Origin: Bacteroidales bacterium | GTDB lineage: Bacteria; Bacteroidota; Bacteroidia; Bacteroidales; VadinHA17 | Direction of reading: 5' to 3' | DNA length: 38,202 nucleotides | NCBI GenBank assembly: GCA_021163295.1 | Contig: JAGGXD010000262.1 | Location: 1-38,202, forward strand | In this document: positions 22,945 to 35,628 of the stretch, in pieces | Layout: the number at the start of each line of letters is the position of its first letter | Numbering within the stretch: position 1 is the first letter of the stretch | Translations under genes and position numbers: made by a program | Notes under the pieces: model-generated | The model's input: only the letters and a program-made list of their open reading frames with translations | What the model was told of the DNA's origin: nothing | Databases searched by the model: none

Positions 22945-24102
22945 TTATTTTTCTTTCAATTCGAGGTAATAATCATTAAGAATATTAGTAACCAGAGGTT
23001 TGTAATATTTCCAATAAAACTTCCTTTTATCCGAGAGGTCATTATTGTAAAGATATTTATCAACCTTTTCGATATCTTTGAAATAGGTAGTGGAATAGTT
23101 AACAACATTATTGGCAAAGTCGCCCGCGAAATAAAAATAATGTTTCTTTTCCGGTTGCATGATCACTGCAGGAAAGACTTCAGGAATAAGGTTAGCTTCC
23201 AATAGTGAATCTCCAACATAATTTGCATGAATTTTAAACTCAGAAAGAACAATATTTTCACCTGATTCGATAATATTGAACCAATGAGGGTAATTTACTT
23301 TATAAGGTAAATCGTAAGCTTCCTGGGCCTCTTTAGATGAATAAATAAATGGCACATCAAAATCAAGGTGTGTTTCATTCTCAAGCACAATGACTTTATT
23401 ATCATTTTTCACCAGAATAATTCCTGAATTTATAAATGGCCAGGTTTCAAGATTATCTTTCTCGTAAAGTTTAATTATCCACTTAGGAATTTCAGGATTC
23501 GTTGCGGGATTAAGATCCTTATAATATTTCCCTGCCCAGCCTGTCCAGTGAATATCGAAAATATTTTCTGTTTTGTTTCTTTCAAGCGGAGCAGTTGGAT
23601 AAGCCAATATATTATATTCAGCAATTACCAATTTATCCCTGTCTTTCATTTCCTTCAGTAAACTATAATCACTATTGTTTAATCCTCCATAAATAAGTCT
23701 GGAACGGTTGCTGCGATTAATTCCATGATACCAGTCATTAAAATACACTCCATACGTATCTGCATAGTAAAGAGCATCTAATGAATCGGCAAGTTCAATT
23801 ATTTGAGCAAATCGTATTCTTCGAGGTTCCCATTGCTTATCTCTAAGAGGACGTAAAGGAACAAAACCAAAGTAGTCTTTCTTATAAGAATACAACCTCT
23901 TGTTTCCTTTAACATACTTATTATGAGTAAGAATCCAGTGAAATGATTTGTGATTGTACCTGTCATAAGTTGGTACTGTCTTATCCAGAATAAGGACATC
24001 AAGAGGTCGTTTCGGCTGTACTCCCCACTTCACAATATTTAACACCGGGAAAAACAGGATCACAATAAGGATTATGATAAATAGAATAAGAGATTTTTTC
24101 AT
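22945..24102 (-). CDS. Membrane-anchored protein of unknown function
   Basis: 385 residues that I do not recognise. Residues 1-25 form a strongly hydrophobic signal anchor (KSLILFIIILIVILFFPVL) with no lipobox, so the rest should lie on the periplasmic side. The body is rich in Tyr, Trp, Asn and Asp and contains PLDVLILDKTVPTYDRYNH near 35, ALYYADTYGVYFNDW, IYGGLNNSDYSLLKEMKDRD and FDIHWTGWAGKYYKDL. The alternation of predicted strands ending in Asp/Asn with helices suggests an alpha/beta enzyme-like fold. It is a single gene with its own terminator and probable promoter (24144). Confidence 0.8.
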   Translation of the reverse strand: MKKSLILFIIILIVILFFPVLNIVKWGVQPKRPLDVLILDKTVPTYDRYNHKSFHWILTHNKYVKGNKRLYSYKKDYFGFVPLRPLRDKQWEPRRIRFAQIIELADSLDALYYADTYGVYFNDWYHGINRSNRSRLIYGGLNNSDYSLLKEMKDRDKLVIAEYNILAYPTAPLERNKTENIFDIHWTGWAGKYYKDLNPATNPEIPKWIIKLYEKDNLETWPFINSGIILVKNDNKVIVLENETHLDFDVPFIYSSKEAQEAYDLPYKVNYPHWFNIIESGENIVLSEFKIHANYVGDSLLEANLIPEVFPAVIMQPEKKHYFYFAGDFANNVVNYSTTYFKDIEKVDKYLYNNDLSDKRKFYWKYYKPLVTNILNDYYLELKEK

Positions 24103-24419: not shown

Positions 24420-24476
24420 TTTAACATAAAATTAACATACACTGCTATTATCCGATTATTTTGAAAGTTACATTTG
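24420..24476 (+). promoter_or_regulatory. Candidate Pho box and -7 element of the phosphate transporter gene
   Basis: TTTAACA-TAAA-ATTAACA-TACA (24420-24441) is a direct repeat of two 7-mers separated by 4 bp, an 11-bp period as in PhoB-type boxes. TACATTTG, a perfect -7 element, lies at 24469-24476, 27 bp further on, with no TTTG -33 element. That is expected of an activator-dependent promoter. The start codon is at 24501. Confidence 0.65.
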
Positions 24477-24500
24477 TTCAATATCTAAAAGCCATCCCCT

Positions 24501-26765
24501 ATGGAATCATTCTATATTTTTATTGTAGTTATTCTTTTTATCCTGGCAATTTCCGATCTTGTTGTTGGTGTCAGTAATGACGCTGTAAACTTTTTAAATT
24601 CGGCTTTTGGCTCTAAAGTTGCCTCTTTCAGGGTAATTATGATTGTTGCAGCCATTGGTATTCTTGTCGGAACAACATTCTCCAGCGGGATGATGGAAAT
24701 TGCCCGGAAAGGAATTATGCATCCTGATCAGTTTTACTTTAAAGAAATTATGATCATTTTTATTTCTGTTATGCTGACAGACATTATTCTTCTTGATCTG
24801 TTCAATACTTTTGGGTTACCCACTTCAACAACCGTTTCCATAGTTTTTGAGCTTTTAGGTGCTTCAGTTGGAATGGCTATAATTAAAATAACCAACTCAC
24901 CTGAAAGCGGGGATCTTGATACATATATTAATACAGGAAAAGCGCTTGCAATAATTTTCGGTATTTTATTATCAGTGATTGTTGCATTTTCCTTCGGTGC
25001 CCTTATTCAATATCTGGCAAGGCTTATTTTCTCTTTTGAATACGAAAAGTATTTAAAATATTTTGGATCTATCTGGGGAGGACTGTCTATTGCTGCAATA
25101 ACATTTTTCATTCTTATTAAAGGAGCAAAAGGCTCTTCATTTATTTCTTCTGAACAATTGATCTGGATAAAAGCCAATGCCTTTTTAATTATCGTATTAA
25201 GCTTTATTGGGTGCTCATTACTTCTTCAACTGCTATTCTGGCTATTTAAGATCAATGTATTAAAGTTTATTGTACTGGTAGGAACATTTGCCTTAGCAAT
25301 GGCATTTGCCGGGAATGACCTTGTCAACTTTATTGGCGTTCCGCTTGCCGGCTTTGAATCTTTTAAAGCTTTCATTGCAAGTGGTAGCGGTGATCCTGCA
25401 ACTTTTTCAATGGAAGCACTAAAAGAAGCAGTACAGACACCTACAACATTTCTCTTGATAGCGGGGATCATTATGGTAATTACTTTATGGGTATCCAGAA
25501 AAGCAAGGTCGGTAACCAAAACCACTCTTGATCTCAGCCGGCAGGATGAAGGAACAGAACGTTTTGAATCATCACTTCTCGCGCGTGCAATTGTCCGGAG
25601 CACATTATCTTTTAGTAAATCTGTTAGCAAGATTGTACCGGCACATATCCAAATTGCCGTAAGAAAGAGGTTTGACCGGACTTTATATAAAAAACGTAAA
25701 CGTGATGAATCTATCTCATTTGATCTGGTCAGAGCTTCTGTTAACCTTGTTGTTGCAAGTATACTAATTGCTTTTGGCACATCACTTAAGTTACCGTTAT
25801 CTACAACTTATGTAACATTTATGGTAGCTATGGGAACCTCACTTGCTGATGGTGCCTGGGGCAGGGAAAGTGCAGTTTACCGGATATCCGGTGTTATTAC
25901 AGTAATTACCGGCTGGTTTTTTACTGCACTTAGCGCATTTACGGTTGCATTCTGTATAGCAATTATTATTCATTGGACAGGTTTAGCAGGCATCCTTATC
26001 ATTGTTACTCTAGCTGTTTTCCTTGTTGTCCGGACCAATGTTTTTCACCATAAAAAAGAAAAAGAAGAAGAAAAGAAAAAAGTAGAAAGAGAAAAAATTA
26101 AAATACTGGACAGGGAGAATGTGCTTGAAATCTCAAGACAGAACGTAACATCAACCCTTATATCAGTTTCCAAGCTCTATTATTTAAGTATAACAGGGTT
26201 ATTGAATGAAGACAGGAAATTGGTTAAAAATAATATGAAAGATATAAAGAAACTTAATCAAGAGGTTAAGAGTCATAAGGACAATGTATTCTCCACAATC
26301 AAGCTCCTTGATGAAAACTCAACGGATACAGGCCCTTTTTATGTCCAGGTAGTTGATTATCTCAGGGAAGCAGCTCACTGTCTTACATATCTGACTGATC
26401 CTATCTTCAACCACATTGATAATAATCATCCTCCATTACGTACTGTTCAAAGGAATTATCTGAATGATCTGAATGAAGAAATTTCAAATTTTTACAATCT
26501 GGTTCTGAATACTGTTAAGAAAGATAAGTTTGAAATTGTGAAGGAGATTATCGACAAGCAGCAATTAATACTGGAGCAACTTGATAAATTACAAAAAAAA
26601 CAGGTAAAAATGATCAAACACGAAGAAGCAGGAACAAAAAACAGCCTTTTATTCTTCAATACTATATCAGAAACGAAAAGCCTGTTGCTTAATACAGTAA
26701 ATATCATTAAAGCCCAGAGGGATTTTGTGATCCACAATAAAAATAATAGTAAGAATCAAGTTTAA
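24501..26765 (+). CDS. Inorganic phosphate transporter (Pit family) with C-terminal coiled domain
   Basis: A 754-residue inner-membrane protein that imports phosphate with a cation. The two Pit signature repeats are seen: GVSNDAVNFLNSAFGS near 25 and AFAGNDLVNFIGVPLAG near 270, each with a nearby serine/threonine stretch (FGLPTSTTVSIV; LPLSTTYVTFM). About 10-12 hydrophobic segments run to residue about 515. After a charged KEKEEEKKKVEREK linker, the last 220 residues are soluble and helical, resembling a PhoU-like domain that could gate transport or sense phosphate status. The domain identity is inferred from pattern only. A Pho-type box lies upstream. Confidence 0.92.
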   Translation: MESFYIFIVVILFILAISDLVVGVSNDAVNFLNSAFGSKVASFRVIMIVAAIGILVGTTFSSGMMEIARKGIMHPDQFYFKEIMIIFISVMLTDIILLDLFNTFGLPTSTTVSIVFELLGASVGMAIIKITNSPESGDLDTYINTGKALAIIFGILLSVIVAFSFGALIQYLARLIFSFEYEKYLKYFGSIWGGLSIAAITFFILIKGAKGSSFISSEQLIWIKANAFLIIVLSFIGCSLLLQLLFWLFKINVLKFIVLVGTFALAMAFAGNDLVNFIGVPLAGFESFKAFIASGSGDPATFSMEALKEAVQTPTTFLLIAGIIMVITLWVSRKARSVTKTTLDLSRQDEGTERFESSLLARAIVRSTLSFSKSVSKIVPAHIQIAVRKRFDRTLYKKRKRDESISFDLVRASVNLVVASILIAFGTSLKLPLSTTYVTFMVAMGTSLADGAWGRESAVYRISGVITVITGWFFTALSAFTVAFCIAIIIHWTGLAGILIIVTLAVFLVVRTNVFHHKKEKEEEKKKVEREKIKILDRENVLEISRQNVTSTLISVSKLYYLSITGLLNEDRKLVKNNMKDIKKLNQEVKSHKDNVFSTIKLLDENSTDTGPFYVQVVDYLREAAHCLTYLTDPIFNHIDNNHPPLRTVQRNYLNDLNEEISNFYNLVLNTVKKDKFEIVKEIIDKQQLILEQLDKLQKKQVKMIKHEEAGTKNSLLFFNTISETKSLLLNTVNIIKAQRDFVIHNKNNSKNQV

Positions 26766-26900
26766 AGTAAAAAGTAAAAAGATAAAAGTTAATAAGAAGA
26801 TTAAGATGTGGTTCCTGGTTGGTTTCAGGTTCTTAACCTCAAACATCTTCAAACCTCAAACTCTTTATTCTTTCTTACTCACCTACTCAACTTACTCAAC

Positions 26901-27602
26901 TTACTTACCTATATACTTGTACCCAACTCCTTTAACTGTTTGAATATGCTTCTCTCCTACTTTCTCCCGTAATTTCCGAATATGGACATCAATTGTTCTA
27001 TCCCCTACAATAACATCATCACCCCATATTTTACTAAAAATCTCGTTACGGGAAAAAACCCTTTCAGGTTTTGAGATAAGTAAAGCCAGTAATTCAAACT
27101 CCTTTTTAGGAAGGGATAATTTCCCCCCCTTTTTTATCACGATGTATTTTTCACGATCCAGTATTATATCATCCTGTTCAATTATCATGTTTTGTTGTTC
27201 CTCATCGATACTATTTGCCCTATCTCTTCGCCTTATTAATGCTTTAATTTTGGATATCAGCACCTTAGGACTAATAGGCTTAACTATATAATCATCTCCA
27301 CCTGCTTTAAATCCGGCTATCTGTGAATAATCTTCACCCCTGGCAGTTAAAAACACTATGATTGTATTGTCCAGTTCCTTAATTTTTCGTAGCTCCTCAC
27401 AGGTTTCCATTCCATCAATTTCCGGCATCATTACATCTAAAAGTATTAACTGTGGAACAAATTTCCTGGCCATTTCAATTCCATCCCTTCCGTTACGGGC
27501 TGTCAATACTTCATATCCCTCTTTGTTCAGGTTATATGAGATGAATTCCAGAATATCCTTTTCATCATCCACAAGCAAAATTTTCTGTTTAGCTAGCTTC
27601 AT
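26901..27602 (-). CDS. PhoB/OmpR-family response regulator
   Basis: A 233-residue two-domain transcription factor. The receiver domain (1-120) has the acidic pair D12-D13, the phospho-acceptor Asp56 in LILLDVMMPEIDG, Thr86 and Lys108. The winged-helix Trans_reg_C domain (about 140-230) has SRNEIFSKIWG, RTIDVHIRKLREK and VKGVGYKYIG. No sensor kinase is adjacent. Its position between a Pit transporter and a cluster of envelope genes that all carry 11-bp-phased TTAA repeats suggests it is the PhoB of this genome. Its own promoter has such a repeat, so it may be autoregulated. The OmpR-family call is certain; the PhoB role is inferred. Confidence 0.92.
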   Translation of the reverse strand: MKLAKQKILLVDDEKDILEFISYNLNKEGYEVLTARNGRDGIEMARKFVPQLILLDVMMPEIDGMETCEELRKIKELDNTIIVFLTARGEDYSQIAGFKAGGDDYIVKPISPKVLISKIKALIRRRDRANSIDEEQQNMIIEQDDIILDREKYIVIKKGGKLSLPKKEFELLALLISKPERVFSRNEIFSKIWGDDVIVGDRTIDVHIRKLREKVGEKHIQTVKGVGYKYIGK

Positions 27603-27624
27603 AGTTTTAAGAAATTATTAAATG

Positions 27625-27687
27625 TAAAGATAAACAAATTGAGGTTTGATAAGAGAACCTTAAGATTATGTTAATGATTTGTAAAGC
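27625..27687 (-). promoter_or_regulatory. Candidate Pho box and -7 element of the response-regulator gene
   Basis: On the plus strand CTTAAGA-TTAT-GTTAATG-ATTT-GTAAAGC (27659-27687) gives three 7-mers in 11-bp register. On the minus strand the core reads TTAACATAATCTTAAG, matching the pit core TTAACATAAAATTAAC at 13 of 16 positions. TATCTTTA (minus strand of 27625-27632) is a -7 element 26 bp away, nearly the same distance as at pit. Confidence 0.6.
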
Positions 27688-27709
27688 AATGATAAGATCC
27701 GTCCGTTTA

Positions 27710-27766
27710 TTTAATCAAACCTTAATCTATTCATAAGATTCAATTAAAAGCACCCTGTTTTCTTTG
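27710..27766 (+). promoter_or_regulatory. Candidate Pho box array of the first beta-helix lipoprotein
   Basis: Four 7-mers in 11-bp register: TTTAATC (27710), CTTAATC (27721), CATAAGA (27732), ATTAAAA (27743), each followed by a 4-bp spacer. The last two are weaker. TTTCTTTG at 27759-27766 is a -7 element with one mismatch. The start codon is at 27812. Confidence 0.55.
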
Positions 27767-27811
27767 CACTAGTTAATTCAAATTAAAATACGAAACTAAA
27801 ATCTAAAACAA

Positions 27812-29263
27812 ATGAAAAAAACGAAAACACAGCTATTCAGTTACTTAATTGTAATCGGTGTATTATTTCTTATTGGACTGATTGCATGTGAGGAAAATAA
27901 TGAACCGGAATCTGATCCTAATGCGACCAAGTATGAGGAGGTGAATGGTGAAGTCACGGTAACAGATCTTGGGCAGGGTACCGGAACTATAACATGGACC
28001 AGTGACAAAGTATGGATATTGAATGGTCTGGTATTCGTAAATAGTGATCAGACCCTTACTATTGAAGCAGGTACAGTTATTAAAGGGAAACCGGGGATGG
28101 AAGCAGATGCAAGCGCCCTTATTGTTACCAGGGGAGGTATGATTTCTGCTATTGGTACGGCTTCAAATCCCATTATCTTTACGGCTGAAGCTGATCAGCT
28201 TAGTGGGAACATTGGAAAAGATCAGCGTGGACTATGGGGTGGTATAATTATACTGGGAAAAGCTTCCCTGAATTCAAACCCTGGTGAAACAGCTATTGAA
28301 GGAATTCCGACCAGTGAATCCAGGGGGTTATATGGTGGTTCGGATGATACGGATAATTCAGGAACTTTGAAATATGTCTCAATCAGGCATGGCGGAACCG
28401 ACATCGGTGAAGGAAATGAGATCAATGGTCTTACCCTCGGCGGTGTAGGCAGTGGAACCACTTTTGAATATATTGAGGTAATATCCAACAAAGACGATGG
28501 TGTTGAATTCTTTGGAGGAAATCCACGGCTAAAATACATTCTGGTGGCTTATTGCGGAGATGATTCCTATGATTATGATGAAGGATTCCGTGGAAAAGGA
28601 CAATTCTGGGTCGCCATACAGGATGAAACCGGTGGAGCCGGCGACCGACTTGGAGAACATGATGGTGGAACAGATCCGGAGACTGCAACACCATATGCAA
28701 TTCCCGTTATCTACAATGCGACCTATATTGGCAGAGGTGCTTCTGCCGGAAAACGAGTGATTACGTTCCGTGACAATGCGGGCGGAAAATACAATAATTC
28801 CATCTTCGCCAATCAGGCAAAAGGGATTGATGTGGAGATCCTCATTGGAGAACAGAACAGCTACAAACAGATCTCGGATGGAAATCTGGAAGTAAAGAAC
28901 TGCATCTTTTCTGATGTGGCCGGTGGCACTGCAGAAACTATTTTCAAATTATCCTACGTGGGAGATTCACTCGACAATTCAGGGAATAAAGTAACTGACA
29001 ATGATGATAAACAGATACCTACTTTAGCTCTGCTTAATAAGGTAGATGTTAATACTCCAACCTGGGTGGCTATGTTTGCAAATAACGGCAATTCAACCAT
29101 ATCAGGTCTGGTTAGTGCAACCAATCCGGTACCTGCTACCGGGGCTAACAATGGGGTAGCACCTACAGATAGTTGGTTTACTAATATTACCTACCAGGGA
29201 GCATTTGATCCGGGTGGAACAAACTGGGCAGTAGGTTGGACCTTATTATTTGAATCGAAGTAA
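27812..29263 (+). CDS. Beta-helix-like lipoprotein 1 of the putative phosphate locus
   Basis: 483 residues. The signal LFLIGLIAC has its lipidated Cys at 26, followed by EENNEPESD; acidic residues after the Cys resemble lipoprotein export signals for the outer surface in Bacteroidota. From about 50 on, short strands with turns (LTIEAGTVIKGKPG, ALIVTRGGMISAIGTA, YVSIRHGGTDIGEGNEI, YCGDDSYDYDEGF) suggest a right-handed beta-helix. The end, NWAVGWTLLFESK, is shared with the protein at 34279. No catalytic residues are evident. It sits 95 bp before a TonB-dependent receptor, so it could be that receptor's surface partner in place of SusD. Function is inferred from context. Confidence 0.8.
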   Translation: MKKTKTQLFSYLIVIGVLFLIGLIACEENNEPESDPNATKYEEVNGEVTVTDLGQGTGTITWTSDKVWILNGLVFVNSDQTLTIEAGTVIKGKPGMEADASALIVTRGGMISAIGTASNPIIFTAEADQLSGNIGKDQRGLWGGIIILGKASLNSNPGETAIEGIPTSESRGLYGGSDDTDNSGTLKYVSIRHGGTDIGEGNEINGLTLGGVGSGTTFEYIEVISNKDDGVEFFGGNPRLKYILVAYCGDDSYDYDEGFRGKGQFWVAIQDETGGAGDRLGEHDGGTDPETATPYAIPVIYNATYIGRGASAGKRVITFRDNAGGKYNNSIFANQAKGIDVEILIGEQNSYKQISDGNLEVKNCIFSDVAGGTAETIFKLSYVGDSLDNSGNKVTDNDDKQIPTLALLNKVDVNTPTWVAMFANNGNSTISGLVSATNPVPATGANNGVAPTDSWFTNITYQGAFDPGGTNWAVGWTLLFESK

Positions 29264-29290
29264 TACATGCGCTTGATTAATTCATAGGTG

Positions 29291-29328
29291 AGTTGTTTTA
29301 GGGCGGGAAGCCGGTTACTTAAACAACT
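29291..29328 (+). ncRNA. Stem-loop in the lipoprotein-receptor spacer
   Basis: AGTTGTTT (29291-29298) pairs with AAACAACT (29321-29328). A T-T mismatch and two more pairs extend the stem, and a small inner hairpin GGC-GGGAA-GCC (29302-29312) is possible. No T-run follows, so it is not a standard terminator. It could set the ratio of lipoprotein to receptor mRNA. Confidence 0.5.
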
Positions 29329-29358
29329 GGTTTCCTACTATTATTATATGTAGCAATT

Positions 29359-32154
29359 ATGAAAATTACAATATCTACTATTATTTCTTTTGTTTTCATT
29401 TTATCAGGGCTTCAGGGTTACTCCCAGAAGGGATTTTTACGTGGTAAAATAATTGATGAAAAGACGGGAGAAGAACTAATTGGAGCAACAGTAGTAGTAA
29501 CAGGTACTACTAAAGGGACAATTACCGATTTTGATGGAAATTATTCTCTTGAGTTGGATGAAGGAATATATAACTTTACCTGTTCATATATCTCCTACCA
29601 GACACAGAACTATCAGGCCATAAAAATAAAGGCAGATGATGTAACCATTATCAACATCCATCTTGATGAGGCACAGGTTGCTCTTGATGAAGTCTATGTT
29701 GTTGCCAGGGCCTCAAGGAGAACGGAAGCCGCCCTGCAGGTTTTGCAGAGAAGATCTTCGGTTGTTCTGGATGGAATATCAGCACAACAGATCTCCAGGT
29801 TGGGCGATAGTGATGCAGCCGGAGCGTTGAAACGGGTTACCGGTGTATCGGTTGAAGGAGGTAAATATATCTATGTAAGAGGGCTGAGTGACAGGTATAG
29901 TAAAACCACCCTGAACGGAGCAGAGATTCCCGGATTGGATCCCAACAGGAATACAGTTCAACTTGACCTTTTTCCAAGTAATATAATCGAGAATATGGTT
30001 ATTCATAAAACATTCTCTCCCGACCTTCCGGCAAGCTTCACCGGTGGACATATTGATATCATTACCAAAGATTTTCCTGAGAAGTATACGTTTCAGCTAT
30101 CTGCTTCATTTGAATTCAATCCAATTTCCCATTTTAATCCGGATTACCTGACATATGAGGGTGGTAAATATGACTGGCTGGGAATTGATGATGGAATCCG
30201 GTCCATTCCCTCTGAGGCTGAAGGACAAATTCCTGCAAGATTTTACGACGATTACCAACTTGACCTGATCACAAAATCATTCAATAAAACGATGGAGTCG
30301 GAAAAAAAATCCTCTTTCATGAATCAGTCCTATTCATTTTCTGTTGGGAACCAGTTAGAAATTAGAGAAAAACCTCTGGGCTATGTGATTGGTCTCTCCT
30401 ATTCAAATAAATATAATTTTAATGATAACGGTGTAACCGGTCGTTTTAAATTAATTGATGGTGGTGATGAATTGCTAACCAGCCAATTGACCCTAGACAC
30501 GGATAAGAAAGGATCAAATGATGTGATGTGGGCTGTACTGGCTAACCTAAATTATAAAATAAATAACAGCCATAAGATAGGACTCCTTTTGCTGCATAAT
30601 CATAGCGGAGAATCTTCAGCACGCTATCAGGCGGGTGAAAAAAGTTCAGATGAGGCAGGGATGCTCTATCAAACCAGAACACTACAATTCCTTGAAAGAG
30701 GATTTTCATCTATTCAACTAAAAGGTGAGGATTTTTTTGAGAATGTTGGAAAAATTAAGATAGACTGTTTGAGCTCTTATACCTATTCAAAACAGCATGA
30801 ACCAGACCTTAGATTTTTTACCAACCATTATACACTGCAGGGTAATAGCAGACTCTATGAAATTAGTCAATCTCTCTATCCTGTCCCAACACGCTATTAC
30901 AGGTTTATGGATGAATTGAACTGGGATAACAAGATCAATTCTGAGAAGCCATTCAACCTCGGATCAATAGATACAAAATTGAAAGCGGGAGTTTCATTTG
31001 TCTTAAAAAAACGGGAATTCAGGGAGAAGAAATTCAATTTTAACGAAAATAGCAATTCTTATAACGGTGACATAATCAGCTATCTGGATGACAGCAACAT
31101 TAATGCAAGTGAAGGAAGACTGTTCGTTTCTAATTCTGAAACTTCTGACAAAAAGAATAGTTATAACGGATACCAACGGATACTTGGTTCATATATCATG
31201 ACAGAACTGGAGTTGACTGAGAAGTTCAGATTTGTTACAGGAATAAGGATGGAAAATGCATACATATTAACCAACAGTCTCAAAGAGAATGAAAAGGAAG
31301 GAATACTGGACAACACGGATTTCCTGCCTTCGCTGAATACAATCTACTCACTTCAGGATAACATGAACCTGCGATTCTCCTGTAACAGAACGCTTGCCCG
31401 TCCGAGCTTCAGGGAATTGGCCCCTTATGCCTCCCTCAATTTTGTTGGGGATTTTGTATTCATTGGCAATGCCAATCTAAAACGAACCCTTATTGATAAT
31501 TTTGATTTCCGGTACGAGTTTTTCTTCAAGCCGGGTGAATTGTTCTCGTTCAGCGCTTTCTACAAGCAATTTATCAACCCGATTGAACGCACCTTTAATA
31601 CAGAGGCTGCAAACCCGGAACTAACCCTCCGGAATGCTGATGAAGCCCGGATTTATGGAGTAGAAATGGAGATCAGAAAAAATCTCGAATTTGTTTCATG
31701 GATGAAAAATCTCAGTTTTGGGGCCAATTTGACATATGTTAAATCCTCTGTTACAGTAGATCCAAAGGAGTTATCATTAAAAAGGGAGTTTGATCCCGGA
31801 TTTCCGGATAAAAGGGTGATGTTCGGACAGGCACCCTACATTGTAAATGCTTACCTTAACTATACAAACGATTCGCTTCGATTGAGTTCCAACATTAGTT
31901 ACAATATCTCAGGCGAAAGACTATATCTGGTGAATGCTGTAGGAATACCTGATGTATTCGAACAACCACGGGGACAACTCGATTTCAACATCTCTAAGAA
32001 ATTAGGTGAAAAATTCAATGTGAAATTCTCGGTAAAGAACCTGCTGGACACTAAATATAATCAAACCTATTTTTACAAGAATACAACATATATATTTGAG
32101 AGTTTTATATCAGGACGATTTTATTCTATCAGCTTAAGCTACCTGATAGATTAA
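29359..32154 (+). CDS. TonB-dependent receptor with N-terminal regulatory-like domain
   Basis: A 931-residue outer-membrane transporter. Signal peptide 1-22; CarboxypepD_reg-like domain about 25-105 (GKIIDEKTGEELIGATVVV, TDFDGNYSLEL); plug domain about 120-235 (AAGALKRVTGVSVEGG, YIYVRGLSDRYSKTTLNGAEI, GGHIDIITKDFP); beta-barrel from about 245 to the C-terminus (NLLDTKYNQTYFY, last strand SISLSYLID). No SusD gene is adjacent. Position in the putative Pho locus suggests uptake of a phosphorus compound such as a phosphate ester or complex, but the ligand cannot be read from the sequence. No signal-transducing (FecA-type) extension is present. Confidence 0.93.
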   Translation: MKITISTIISFVFILSGLQGYSQKGFLRGKIIDEKTGEELIGATVVVTGTTKGTITDFDGNYSLELDEGIYNFTCSYISYQTQNYQAIKIKADDVTIINIHLDEAQVALDEVYVVARASRRTEAALQVLQRRSSVVLDGISAQQISRLGDSDAAGALKRVTGVSVEGGKYIYVRGLSDRYSKTTLNGAEIPGLDPNRNTVQLDLFPSNIIENMVIHKTFSPDLPASFTGGHIDIITKDFPEKYTFQLSASFEFNPISHFNPDYLTYEGGKYDWLGIDDGIRSIPSEAEGQIPARFYDDYQLDLITKSFNKTMESEKKSSFMNQSYSFSVGNQLEIREKPLGYVIGLSYSNKYNFNDNGVTGRFKLIDGGDELLTSQLTLDTDKKGSNDVMWAVLANLNYKINNSHKIGLLLLHNHSGESSARYQAGEKSSDEAGMLYQTRTLQFLERGFSSIQLKGEDFFENVGKIKIDCLSSYTYSKQHEPDLRFFTNHYTLQGNSRLYEISQSLYPVPTRYYRFMDELNWDNKINSEKPFNLGSIDTKLKAGVSFVLKKREFREKKFNFNENSNSYNGDIISYLDDSNINASEGRLFVSNSETSDKKNSYNGYQRILGSYIMTELELTEKFRFVTGIRMENAYILTNSLKENEKEGILDNTDFLPSLNTIYSLQDNMNLRFSCNRTLARPSFRELAPYASLNFVGDFVFIGNANLKRTLIDNFDFRYEFFFKPGELFSFSAFYKQFINPIERTFNTEAANPELTLRNADEARIYGVEMEIRKNLEFVSWMKNLSFGANLTYVKSSVTVDPKELSLKREFDPGFPDKRVMFGQAPYIVNAYLNYTNDSLRLSSNISYNISGERLYLVNAVGIPDVFEQPRGQLDFNISKKLGEKFNVKFSVKNLLDTKYNQTYFYKNTTYIFESFISGRFYSISLSYLID

Positions 32155-32214
32155 TAGAACGACCCGAAAATATACATAAAACAACATAACATAATATTTA
32201 ATTATATTTAGACA

Positions 32215-32679
32215 ATGAAAAAAATCAGTGCAGTTCTTATATTCATCCTATACACCCTAACCTTGCAGGCTCAGCACCTGGAGAGAGAAGACGGTATATA
32301 TTATGATAAAGATAACAATCTATATACCGGGACATACGCAGAACATTACGAAAGCGGTCAGATAAAAATCGAAATGCAGATCAAGTCAGGGCTAAAGCAT
32401 GGAGTCATCAAGATGTTTTTTAAAAATGGACAGATCAAGGAGATCAGAGCCTATTACAATAACCTTATGGATGGCACCTGGCAAACCTGGAACGAGAATG
32501 AAATAAAGATTGGTGAAGCTAACTATTCCAAAGGTCTCAAAAATGGTAAGTGGCGTATTTGGGATGAAAACGGGATTCTCCGCTATGATATGAACTATGA
32601 TAATGGGAAGAAAATCGGTATCTGGTATATTTATGATGAATCCGGCAAACTGATCTCATCTAAAAACTACAACGAATAA
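32215..32679 (+). CDS. Secreted MORN-repeat (YwqK-like) protein
   Basis: 154 residues with a signal peptide (1-19, ending LQAQ). The mature protein consists of repeats of about 22 residues of the MORN-variant type: GTYAEHYESGQIKIEMQI, GVIKMFFKNGQIKEIRAY, GTWQTWNENEIKIGEANY, GKWRIWDENGILRYDMNY, GIWYIYDESGKLISSKNY. Such repeats form extended beta sheets that act as structural or binding platforms. It follows the receptor gene by 60 bp on the same strand and probably belongs to the same transcript. Role unknown. Confidence 0.85.
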   Translation: MKKISAVLIFILYTLTLQAQHLEREDGIYYDKDNNLYTGTYAEHYESGQIKIEMQIKSGLKHGVIKMFFKNGQIKEIRAYYNNLMDGTWQTWNENEIKIGEANYSKGLKNGKWRIWDENGILRYDMNYDNGKKIGIWYIYDESGKLISSKNYNE

Positions 32680-32733
32680 GTAAATGAATTCTATTGATGA
32701 TAAATCACATGCTTCTGTTTATGCCGGATGAAC

Positions 32734-33087
32734 TTAATTTGCAACACTTTTTAACCTTATATCAACCTTGTTTTTCTTTTTCAATTCTGCATGTACTTTT
32801 GATGTACATTCATTGTAAGAAATTAAAGAGGTTTTTATGGTATATTCCCTGGGAATAAGATCTGTGAATTCAAAATTACCATCAAAACCGGTATAAACAG
32901 ACAAATCAACCCCTTCAAGAAAAACGGAAACGCCAGCTAGTGTTTCCCCTGTAATTTCATCAACAACCGAACCGGTAATTGAAGTTGTTTTTGCAGCGGA
33001 TTTGTTGGTTTTAGATTTCCCGGTAGTAGTCATTGCAGAAAGAGTAACCGCAACAAGTATAAATACTAAAATAATTATTTTTTTCAT
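32734..33087 (-). CDS. Stand-alone carboxypeptidase-regulatory-like domain protein
   Basis: About 117 residues from the ATG at 33087, which gives a clean signal peptide (MKKIIILVFILVAVTLSA). The ATG at 33108 is upstream of the predicted transcription start set by the -7 element at 33111-33118. After a Lys/Thr-rich stretch comes one CarboxypepD_reg-like domain (SITGSVVDEITGETLAGVSV, VYTGFDGNFEFTDLIP, YTIKTSLISYNE), the same type that forms the N-terminus of the receptor at 29359. It is a detached copy of that domain, probably periplasmic. It may dock to receptors or to TonB; no enzyme activity is expected. Confidence 0.8.
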   Translation of the reverse strand: MKKIIILVFILVAVTLSAMTTTGKSKTNKSAAKTTSITGSVVDEITGETLAGVSVFLEGVDLSVYTGFDGNFEFTDLIPREYTIKTSLISYNECTSKVHAELKKKNKVDIRLKSVAN

Positions 33088-33110
33088 TTTCTTTTTTTCT
33101 TGATTCATGA

Positions 33111-33179
33111 CAAAAATAAGGAAGGCATGTTAACTGTATCTTAATTTATTATCATACTTACATTAACCTTATGTTAATA
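33111..33179 (-). promoter_or_regulatory. Candidate Pho box array between the regulatory-domain and porin genes
   Basis: TTAA cores start at 33130, 33141, 33163 and 33174. All are in one 11-bp register, with the missing position at 33152 reading TCATA. On the minus strand the two pairs read TTAACATAAGGTTAAT and TTAAGATACAGTTAAC, close to the cores at pit and the response-regulator gene. TATTTTTG (minus strand of 33111-33118), a perfect -7 element, lies 10 bp beyond the array towards the minus-strand gene. For the plus-strand porin the array is about 90 bp upstream of the start. Confidence 0.65.
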
Positions 33180-33268
33180 ATTTCGGTAAAAAGAGATTCG
33201 AAATTGTAGCAACAAAACTAAATATTTCCTTATAATTGCTTTGTTTTTCGATTAAAATCCTGATAGAG

Positions 33269-34270
33269 ATGCTTACACCCAGGTTTTGCTTCATCTTTTT
33301 GGTTATCAGTCTTCTAACAATAGTTGGAGTTGGTCAGGAAGATAAAAAAACATTCATGGAAAAAACGGTCCCAATTGCTAACCTTTACAGCAACTTTCAT
33401 ACTCAATTAAATGGTAACTACCTTGGGTTTGATGTTGAACGGGCATATCTTGGTTTTAAAACCCGGCTGAATGCCAATTACTCTATTATTATGAAGTTAG
33501 ATATCGGGAGCCCGGATGATGTATCTGCCTATTCAAAGATTAAGAGATATGCTTACTTCAAGAATGCAGCTTTAATTTTTACCCGGGGAAGATTTACATT
33601 TCATGCAGGTCTTACGGATACTTACCAATTTAAAGTACAGGAGAAATTCTGGACCAGAAGGTACATATACAGGAGTTTTCAGGATGAATACAGGTTCACT
33701 CCCTCTGCAGATATTGGAGTTGGCCTTAAATATGACCATAAGGATTGGTTAACAGCCGATATTTCGTTTATGAACGGGGAAGGATACTCACAACCCCAGT
33801 TCGATAATTCATTCAGAACCGGATTGGGTGTAACATTGAAGCCCATTAAAGTTCTGCTTTTCAGATTCTATTATGATTTTATGGAAAAAAACGCCGTACT
33901 CCAAAGTACCATTGCATCTTTTGTTGGTTTCCAAACGAAAAACTTTAACCTGGCTACGGAATTTAATTATCGGATCAACGACGAATATGAAAAGAATCAG
34001 GATCGCTGGGGATTTTCAATTTACTCCTGCTACAGATTTATAAAGAAATGGGAAGTTTTTACACGATACGATTACCTGACATCAAAAACTTTAACAGGAG
34101 AGAACTATGGTTGGAATTACAGCAAAGATGGAAGTGCATTGCTGGCAGGTTTACAGTACCAACCAGAAACATTTTTAAAAATTGCACTCAGTTACCGGGA
34201 TTGGGTTCCCTATCCGCCTAACCTGGATAACTCCCGTTTTATTTTTGTCAATCTTGAATTCAAAATTTAG
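33269..34270 (+). CDS. Porin-like outer-membrane barrel
   Basis: About 333 residues from the ATG at 33269. The earlier TTG at 33236 overlaps a -7-like element (TTGCTTTG, 33236-33243), so it is unlikely to be the start. A signal peptide ends near VGVGQ. The rest is a series of amphipathic strands with many Tyr/Phe (FDVERAYLGFKTRLNANYSI, RGRFTFHAGLTDTYQF, KVLLFRFYYDFMEKN, SRFIFVNLEFKI), and the final strand ends in an aliphatic residue after Lys. The pattern resembles OprO/OprP-type and other short porins, a guess strengthened by the Pho-like array upstream. It is 8 bp ahead of the second beta-helix lipoprotein and surely co-transcribed. Confidence 0.75.
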   Translation: MLTPRFCFIFLVISLLTIVGVGQEDKKTFMEKTVPIANLYSNFHTQLNGNYLGFDVERAYLGFKTRLNANYSIIMKLDIGSPDDVSAYSKIKRYAYFKNAALIFTRGRFTFHAGLTDTYQFKVQEKFWTRRYIYRSFQDEYRFTPSADIGVGLKYDHKDWLTADISFMNGEGYSQPQFDNSFRTGLGVTLKPIKVLLFRFYYDFMEKNAVLQSTIASFVGFQTKNFNLATEFNYRINDEYEKNQDRWGFSIYSCYRFIKKWEVFTRYDYLTSKTLTGENYGWNYSKDGSALLAGLQYQPETFLKIALSYRDWVPYPPNLDNSRFIFVNLEFKI

Positions 34271-34278
34271 AAAATTAT

Positions 34279-35628
34279 ATGAAACCCGGCTTGTTCTGTT
34301 TTTTGGTTTCTCTAATAATTCTCCTTAGCTTGCCCTCATGCAGGAAGGGTAGCATTCCTCTTGGTGAGACTGATGTTATAAGTGACGCTGGTCAGGGTAC
34401 AGGAACCACAACCTGGACAAAAAACAAAGAATACATTCTGGAAGGTTTTGTTTTTGTAAATCCAGGTCAAACACTGACTATAGAAGCAGGAACTGTCATT
34501 CGGGGAAAAACAGGACAGGGAGAGTTTGCCAGTGCACTTATTGTTGCAAGGGGCGGAAAAATTATCGCGGAAGGAACACTCTATGAACCAATTATTTTTA
34601 CTGTGGAAGGAGACGATCTGCAAGGATCAGTTCCGGTCCATGCTAAAGGATTATGGGGTGGAGTAATTATTCTCGGTCAGGCAAAACTTAATACAGAAGA
34701 GAATGAGGCACATATTGAAGGCATACCTATAACTGAACCCCGCGGGATATATGGTGGAACCCTTGATGATGACAACTCCGGAGTTTTACGGTATGTATCC
34801 ATCAGGCATGGCGGAACCAATATCGGTGAGGGTAATGAGATAAACGGACTTACACTCGGAGGGGTTGGTTCGGGTACAACTATAAATCACGTAGAGAGTA
34901 TCTCCAATTTAGATGATGGTATTGAATGTTTTGGTGGCAGTGTTAATCTGAAGTACATTGTTGTTTCGTATTGCGGTGATGATGCATTTGATGCAGATTT
35001 CGGGTACAATGGTAAGATACAGTTTATGCTGGCTATTCAATCCCCGGAAACCGGGGATCATCTAATTGAAATTACAGGTGGATTGCCACCAGGATATGGA
35101 CTACCCTACTCTCTTCCTTCCATTTACAACTTTACCGGAATTGGTAGAGGACTTAATACCGGCCGGGGTCTTATAAATATAGCTGCAAACGGTGCCGGAA
35201 AAATTCATAATTCAATTTTTACTGACCAGGACCTTGGGATTCTTGTTGAAAAAACCTTCGTGGAACAAGATGCATTTAAACAAATCGAACGCGGAAATCT
35301 GGCTATAGAATGCAACAGTTTCTGGAATGTCCGGGAGGACGATTCAATATCAATTTTTCAGGTAGAGGCAGAACCTGGTGTTGATGTCAGTATACCATCA
35401 GAATTCTTGAAAAATTACTTCACACTTTCACATAGTGAAATTATTGATTATGGTATTGGTCGTATCAACGGCAGGTTAAATATCTCACCGGATTCTGTCA
35501 AATTCGGCAATCTTGTATCATCTCCTGATAGCTGGTTCGATCCTGTAACATTCAAGGGTGCATTTAAAGATCAAAATTGGATACTGGGCTGGACATTGCT
35601 CTATGAGGAGGGGAAAATTGACTTCTAA
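34279..35628 (+). CDS. Beta-helix-like lipoprotein 2, paralogue of 27812-29263
   Basis: 449 residues. The signal LIILLSLPSC gives a lipidated Cys21 followed by RKGS, with no acidic export signal, so it may stay on the periplasmic face, unlike its paralogue. The body repeats the same landmarks in the same order: GQGTGTTTWT, QTLTIEAGTVIRGK, ALIVARGGKII, YVSIRHGGTNIGEGNEINGL, GGVGSGTT, DDGIECFGG, SYCGDDAFD, NWILGWTLLYEE. The two clearly arose by duplication. It follows the porin gene by 8 bp, so one paralogue is paired with a TonB receptor and the other with a porin. Molecular function is unknown. Confidence 0.8.
   Translation: MKPGLFCFLVSLIILLSLPSCRKGSIPLGETDVISDAGQGTGTTTWTKNKEYILEGFVFVNPGQTLTIEAGTVIRGKTGQGEFASALIVARGGKIIAEGTLYEPIIFTVEGDDLQGSVPVHAKGLWGGVIILGQAKLNTEENEAHIEGIPITEPRGIYGGTLDDDNSGVLRYVSIRHGGTNIGEGNEINGLTLGGVGSGTTINHVESISNLDDGIECFGGSVNLKYIVVSYCGDDAFDADFGYNGKIQFMLAIQSPETGDHLIEITGGLPPGYGLPYSLPSIYNFTGIGRGLNTGRGLINIAANGAGKIHNSIFTDQDLGILVEKTFVEQDAFKQIERGNLAIECNSFWNVREDDSISIFQVEAEPGVDVSIPSEFLKNYFTLSHSEIIDYGIGRINGRLNISPDSVKFGNLVSSPDSWFDPVTFKGAFKDQNWILGWTLLYEEGKIDF

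Follow-up and report, generated by a model that had tools for sequence, protein, structure and literature searches.

Tandem 11-bp repeats in register with the −7 promoter element mark a likely Pho box of Bacteroidota

A 38,202-base stretch of a Bacteroidales genome (contig JAGGXD010000262.1 of assembly GCA_021163295.1; hereafter the window, 37% G+C) carries direct repeats of the unit TTAACAT at 11-bp steps in front of genes for a Pit phosphate transporter (pit), a PhoB-like response regulator and envelope proteins. The genome measures 3.49 Mb and is 96.6% complete. The repeats are conserved across the phylum Bacteroidota, stand in a fixed register with the core promoter and are enriched upstream of phosphate genes. 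They very probably represent the Pho box of Bacteroidota, bound by the adjacent PhoB-like regulator, which would activate transcription. We infer that it is this regulator that binds, that it activates rather than represses, and that low phosphate is the signal.

The sequence TTAA is common in the window, with 325 occurrences. TTAA-N7-TTAA pairs are confined to six positions of the 38,202 bases: 24421, 27607, 27660, 27711, 33130 and 33163. All six fall within three intergenic regions (734 bp together), where approximately 0.16 would be expected. The direct repeats at 11-bp steps described for these regions in an earlier, sequence-only reading of the locus are therefore confirmed. Eleven of the 13 cores listed there are TTAA, but those at 27682 (TAAAG) and 27733 (ATAAG) are not, and the pair at 27607 was absent from that list. 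The reading TTAACATAAnnTTAAn, proposed as shared in the promoter direction, is correct, being represented by TTAACATAAAATTAAC at pit (plus strand) and by TTAACATAATCTTAAG at the regulator and TTAACATAAGGTTAAT at the 33-kb site (both minus strand).

Same-genome background, consisting of 20 stretches (387 kb, of which 42 kb are intergenic), shows no excess at 11 bp, with 9 intergenic TTAA pairs compared to 3 to 17 at spacings of 5–30 bp. Thus, 11-bp pairs are not generally frequent in the intergenic DNA of this genome, a check against random background that the sequence-only reading had proposed. The −7 promoter element of Bacteroidota is TAnnTTTG. The composite pattern TTAA-N7-TTAA-N33-TAnnTTTG, scanned across the 3.49 Mb, has a single exact match, at the pit promoter (24421), and the exact pattern TTAACATAAnnTTAAC also occurs once in the genome. 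Allowing one mismatch adds 13 further places, three of them in the intergenic regions of the locus (regulator, lipoprotein and 33130). The composite is not in excess genome-wide, as a reversed-pattern control gave 16 matches compared to 14; given this, the unusual feature is the clustering of the matches at this locus.

The repeat was examined in relatives of the pit gene, 80 of which were obtained from across Bacteroidota in one scan. The spacing test used 77 of their promoters; the two relatives closest to the window were excluded, as was one whose upstream stretch could not be used. Expected counts were derived from first-order Markov resampling (40 resamples). TTAA pairs at exactly 11 bp numbered 101, in 61 promoters, compared to 5.3 expected and a resample maximum of 10, with a 22-bp harmonic of 42 pairs; TTAAC pairs at 11 bp numbered 35 compared to 0.1 expected. 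The consensus is TTAACAT-N4-TTAACAT, with a partly conserved third unit. Matrix positions 0–5 and 11–16 are conserved while the intervening bases are weak, so that the element has the 11-bp direct repeats, with seven conserved and four variable bases, that characterize a Pho box. The expectation that the 11-bp phase is kept in relatives is borne out by this spacing spectrum.

A second property of a Pho box, fixed placement relative to the core promoter, is also observed. TAnnTTTG is placed at +48 or +59 relative to the first unit and, less frequently, at +37 or +70, so in steps of 11. Between +20 and +85 in 63 promoters, 26 of 36 TAnnTTTG elements share one of the eleven phases, and 20 of 29 do so after similarity clustering to 55 dissimilar promoters. 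The offsets in the window are +48 for pit, the regulator and a large lipoprotein (lipoprotein 1), and +59 for a small gene encoding a CarboxypepD_reg protein (cpd).

A matrix trained on the pit promoters was applied, with a threshold of at least 12 bits, to 763 upstream regions around pit in relatives and in the window. Boxes precede 68 of 82 pit orthologues, a count that is partly circular because the matrix was trained on those promoters; the counts for other families are not. All eight members of the cpd family, including that of the window, have a box, as do three of six lipoprotein 1 genes, compared to 13 of 588 unrelated genes. Since this genome has neither PstS nor PhoU, such targets were tested in relatives. 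For pstS, Porin_O_P, rpsB and alkaline phosphatase genes, we used a class-wide genome sample chosen regardless of the box. Boxes were found upstream of 15 of 30 pstS genes (P ∼1e-14 compared to unrelated genes) and 10 of 27 Porin_O_P genes, with some of the porin and pstS sites sharing source genomes, and upstream of none of the 30 rpsB controls. The element thus lies upstream of phosphate-starvation genes (pit, cpd, pstS and Porin_O_P) and rarely elsewhere (unrelated genes and rpsB), as a Pho box does.

Scans of the genome itself with a covariance-tool profile (sequence only) gave 16 matches at E-values up to 10. Three of these are at the locus (pit, cpd and regulator), and most others are inside genes or beside genes without an evident phosphate link. 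This profile was too weak for a regulon call and was set aside; gene families and relatives were therefore used to test the regulon.

Whole-genome scans of five relatives with the matrix (∼19 bits) identified 30 loci, 25 of which are intergenic. Among the neighbouring genes, those preceded by a box include genes for Pit, a second Pit, a PstS-type protein, Ppx/GppA, TonB receptors and two PhoR-like kinases, one of them followed by a PhoB-like regulator; another box adjoins the gene of a MORN protein (in L275, 52% identical to the MORN protein of the window). Elements at −7 that are in register accompany mostly phosphate or envelope genes. The prediction that the box recurs at other phosphate genes thus holds in relatives for pstS, phoR, pit, ppx and porin genes, but fails for alkaline phosphatase (see below). 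The Ppx/GppA-type phosphatase gene (L281:466-1407) has its box ∼105 bp upstream, a hint that the regulon may include polyphosphate turnover. A strong match (19.1 bits) at an NAD-dependent DNA ligase gene (L031:13764-15767) has no −7 element in register and is probably due to chance.

The proposed binder (26901..27602, minus strand) is an OmpR-family response regulator in which both a receiver domain (PF00072) and an OmpR-type winged-helix DNA-binding domain (PF00486) score over cut-off, the domain combination of PhoB. It is the top match to NF053854 in the whole genome (216.5 bits). No kinase gene adjoins it in the window. In relatives, an orthologous regulator and a PhoR-like kinase are divergent from pit in L017, L027, L030, L042, L053, L054 and L070, and the same regulator-kinase pair is present in L014 and L029. 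The top PhoR match in this genome is unlinked, a protein of 268 residues encoded beside ileS on C194 (L157:1411-2217). It is 52–58% identical to the PhoR-like kinases neighbouring pit and the regulator in relatives, its reading frame has no evident membrane segment, and it is possibly the relocated partner kinase.

Neither PhoU nor PstS has any match in this 96.6% complete genome, where the top PstB match scores 149.6 compared to a cut-off of 343.2; a canonical Pst-PhoU-PhoR-PhoB system, with PstSCAB and PhoU present, is therefore not what is found here. Since Pst and PhoU were not found, Pit is the only phosphate transporter here among the kinds searched. One could envisage, as a speculative extension that we consider improbable as a whole, a Pho system that dispenses with Pst and PhoU. 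In it, Pit with its long C-terminal extension, activated through the Pho box, would take over both uptake and signalling and feed a PhoR-like kinase relocated from the locus, in whose reading frame no membrane segment is evident, while the arrays would act at −7/−33 promoters in a strict 11-bp register.

In the mechanism that we propose, a PhoR-type kinase would phosphorylate the PhoB-like regulator under low phosphate. The phosphorylated regulator would bind head to tail on at least two 11-bp units, each consisting of TTAACAT and four A/T-rich bases, and the array would end shortly before the −33 region or overlap it. Because the array is a fixed number of helical turns from TAnnTTTG, the bound dimers could retain the main sigma factor at a promoter that would otherwise be weak. 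At the locus, this would switch on pit and, by autoregulation, the gene of the regulator, together with the lipoprotein 1/TonB-receptor unit and the gene for the small secreted protein.

Several observations weigh against the interpretation as a Pho box bound by this activator. The regulator scores below the curated equivalog cut-offs for PhoB (217 compared to 270 for NF053854, 215 compared to 296 for TIGR02154). Alkaline phosphatase (PF00245), included as a positive control, failed, with a box at 1 of 30 genes and no enrichment; constitutive phosphatases may dominate this family. At the threshold used, sites are missing from half of the pstS promoters and from over half of the Porin_O_P promoters. 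Around half of the matrix matches in relatives adjoin genes without an obvious phosphate role, including GATase_2, Cys/Met metabolism and O-antigen ligase genes, which is consistent with chance for a matrix of this information content. At the locus, lipoprotein 1 has a weak site, and no plus-strand −7 element of the porin gene is in register with the 33-kb array. Binding and the low-phosphate response in this organism are predictions.

The same box and regulator might instead repress pit and activate only the other promoters. Pit is usually a phosphate-replete transporter, repression of some pit genes by PhoB has been reported in Proteobacteria, and control of pit and lipoprotein 1 could have opposite signs. 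We consider this arrangement unlikely, since the pit box shares the +48/+59 register with the small gene and the other boxed promoters, a geometry expected of an activator, and there is no Pst system in this genome that could replace Pit. Less likely still is that the box is the site of another OmpR-family regulator (ArcA-, RprY- or CpxR-like) responding to redox or envelope stress, with phosphate genes being only part of its targets. Tandem geometry is common to members of the OmpR family, the genome encodes a second PhoB/OmpR-like regulator with its own kinase (C62, 184 bits), and the Riemerella motif discussed below was called E. coli ArcA-like by its authors (PMC9603813). However, the box is found at phosphate gene families when genomes are sampled regardless of it, rpsB controls are negative, and the genome scans have many phosphate genes among their targets. 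Moreover, the box precedes the regulator gene and, in relatives, phoR and phoR-phoB. A composition artefact, with TTAA pairs arising by chance in A/T-rich intergenic DNA, could be entertained in a window of 37% G+C where TTAA is frequent, but has practically no probability left and is refuted by the genome background without an 11-bp excess, the strong enrichment of pit promoters at 11 and 22 bp over Markov resamples, and the register with the promoter.

The pit box (24421..24438, plus strand) consists of two perfect units, TTAACAT-aaaa-TTAACAT. With a matrix score of 20.1 bits it is the top-scoring upstream site in the window, and none of 205 background genes reaches 14 bits. Its −7 element, TACATTTG (24469..24476, plus strand), conforms to TAnnTTTG and lies +48 from the start of the box, a canonical offset. 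The pit gene (24501..26765, plus strand) encodes a PHO4-family phosphate transporter (PF01384, E 3.4e-25) with a C-terminal extension. This part, roughly the last 220 residues, has no confident Pfam match and is a possible regulatory domain. A conserved 385-residue protein of unassigned family is encoded upstream of pit (22945-24102) and is kept near pit in L002, L003, L004, L018 and L039.

The box of the regulator, TTAACAT-aatc-TTAAGGT (27657..27674, minus strand; 14.8 bits), is followed in exact +48 register by the −7 element TACATTTA (27619..27626, minus strand), which has one mismatch to TAnnTTTG. The array of lipoprotein 1 (27711..27754, plus strand) is composed of the weaker units TTAATCAAACC, TTAATCTATTC, ATAAGATTCAA and TTAAAAGCACC, whose sequence keeps the 11-bp phase, and a −7-like element, TTTCTTTG (27759..27766, plus strand), is located at +48. 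Near-consensus −7 elements stand at +48 from the boxes of the lipoprotein 1 orthologues in L005 and L019. Lipoprotein 1 itself (27812..29263, plus strand) is likened by its gene neighbours to the low-inorganic-phosphate (low-Pi) lipoprotein FII of Flavobacterium johnsoniae (PMC8115612). The gene of the TonB-dependent receptor (29359..32154, plus strand; PF00593/PF07715) has no box of its own in the matrix scan and is probably read through from lipoprotein 1. A MORN_2-repeat protein (32215..32679, plus strand; PF07661) follows.

The small secreted CarboxypepD_reg-like protein (32734..33108, minus strand; PF13715) is preceded by an array of five 11-bp units (33123..33177, minus strand; 15.0 bits). 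On the minus strand these form a single series at 33177, 33166, 33155 (the degenerate third unit), 33144 and 33133. The −7 element TATTTTTG (33111..33118, minus strand) matches TAnnTTTG exactly and is placed +59 from the first unit, a canonical offset. The sequence-only reading had assigned this array to both the small gene and the porin gene. Only the first assignment is supported: the array reads towards the small gene because TATTTTTG is in register, whereas the porin gene has no registered element. The outer-membrane porin-like protein (33236..34270, plus strand) is not matched to Porin_O_P by Pfam; directly 3' of it lies lipoprotein 2 (34279..35628, plus strand), which is similar to lipoprotein 1. 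The suggestion that the repeats link the whole gene cluster is accordingly narrowed to pit, the regulator, lipoprotein 1 and the small gene, which have registered boxes. The remaining genes of the locus have none, and their putative control would be by read-through.

Several phyla are known to have Pho boxes built from 11-bp direct repeats (PMC4415409, PMC1906773). The PHO box bound by E. coli PhoB resembles the element described here in consisting of at least two 11-bp direct repeats with seven conserved and four less conserved bases, in being bound by an OmpR-family protein and in its location upstream of the core promoter (PMC4415409). The units differ (CTGTCAT compared to TTAACAT, with T..CAT shared), and the E. 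coli box is set to the sigma-70 −10 element instead of the Bacteroidota −7 element TAnnTTTG. Unlike the E. coli box, the one described here precedes pit and TonB-receptor/lipoprotein genes. The cyanobacterial SphR Pho box, CTTAACCT with a 3-bp linker, shares the TTAAC core and the 11-bp period (PMC1906773), but belongs to another phylum and promoter type, with TTAACCT in place of TTAACAT.

Within Bacteroidota, PhoP of Riemerella anatipestifer has a motif, TTTAACA, from DNA affinity purification sequencing (DAP-seq), together with an electrophoretic mobility shift assay on the phoPR promoter; PhoPR is up in phosphate starvation, and few of the genes at the 583 DAP-seq peaks are differentially expressed (PMC9603813). 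Because this motif exists, the box is not wholly uncharacterised, contrary to the sequence-only reading. The rest of that proposal, a Bacteroidota Pho regulon with a box of tandem 11-bp units, is supported by the background, the conserved phase and the target genes. The Riemerella motif has the same core as the box in the same phylum but was reported as ArcA-like, and the portion of the report available to us does not describe a tandem 11-bp unit, a promoter register or pho-gene enrichment (PMC9603813). PhoB of Bacteroides fragilis is needed for pstC expression and binds the pst promoter, with no repeat or register of a box defined in the accessible part of that study (PMC3547664). At the phoBR locus of F. 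johnsoniae, TonB-receptor and lipoprotein genes are up by ∼8–10 log2 units in low Pi (PMC8115612). That locus (phoBR/PUSIV), like ours, brings together phoB, a TonB receptor, a large lipoprotein and a porin, and no cis-element has been described for it (PMC8115612). The window differs in adding pit, the MORN gene, the small CarboxypepD_reg gene and a second lipoprotein, and in lacking phoR. By analogy, the published Riemerella, B. fragilis and F. johnsoniae data support activation by a phosphorylated regulator here. No paper defining a Bacteroidota Pho box was found in the open-licence literature, within which the box definition, its phylum-wide spread, the −7 register and its presence before pit and uncharacterised envelope genes appear to be new.

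In soil, sea and gut, Bacteroidota are among the major degraders of organic matter. The papers found describe their phosphate response mainly through expression data and define no cis-element. With a phylum-wide box and its promoter register, Pho regulons could be predicted from sequence alone, including those of uncultured genomes. The box ties uncharacterised envelope proteins, such as the large lipoproteins, the small CarboxypepD_reg protein and the MORN proteins, to phosphate, and suggests that the Riemerella TTTAACA motif be read as a phosphate site instead of an ArcA-like one. The register also points to a way in which an OmpR-family activator may act at the unusual promoter of Bacteroidota.

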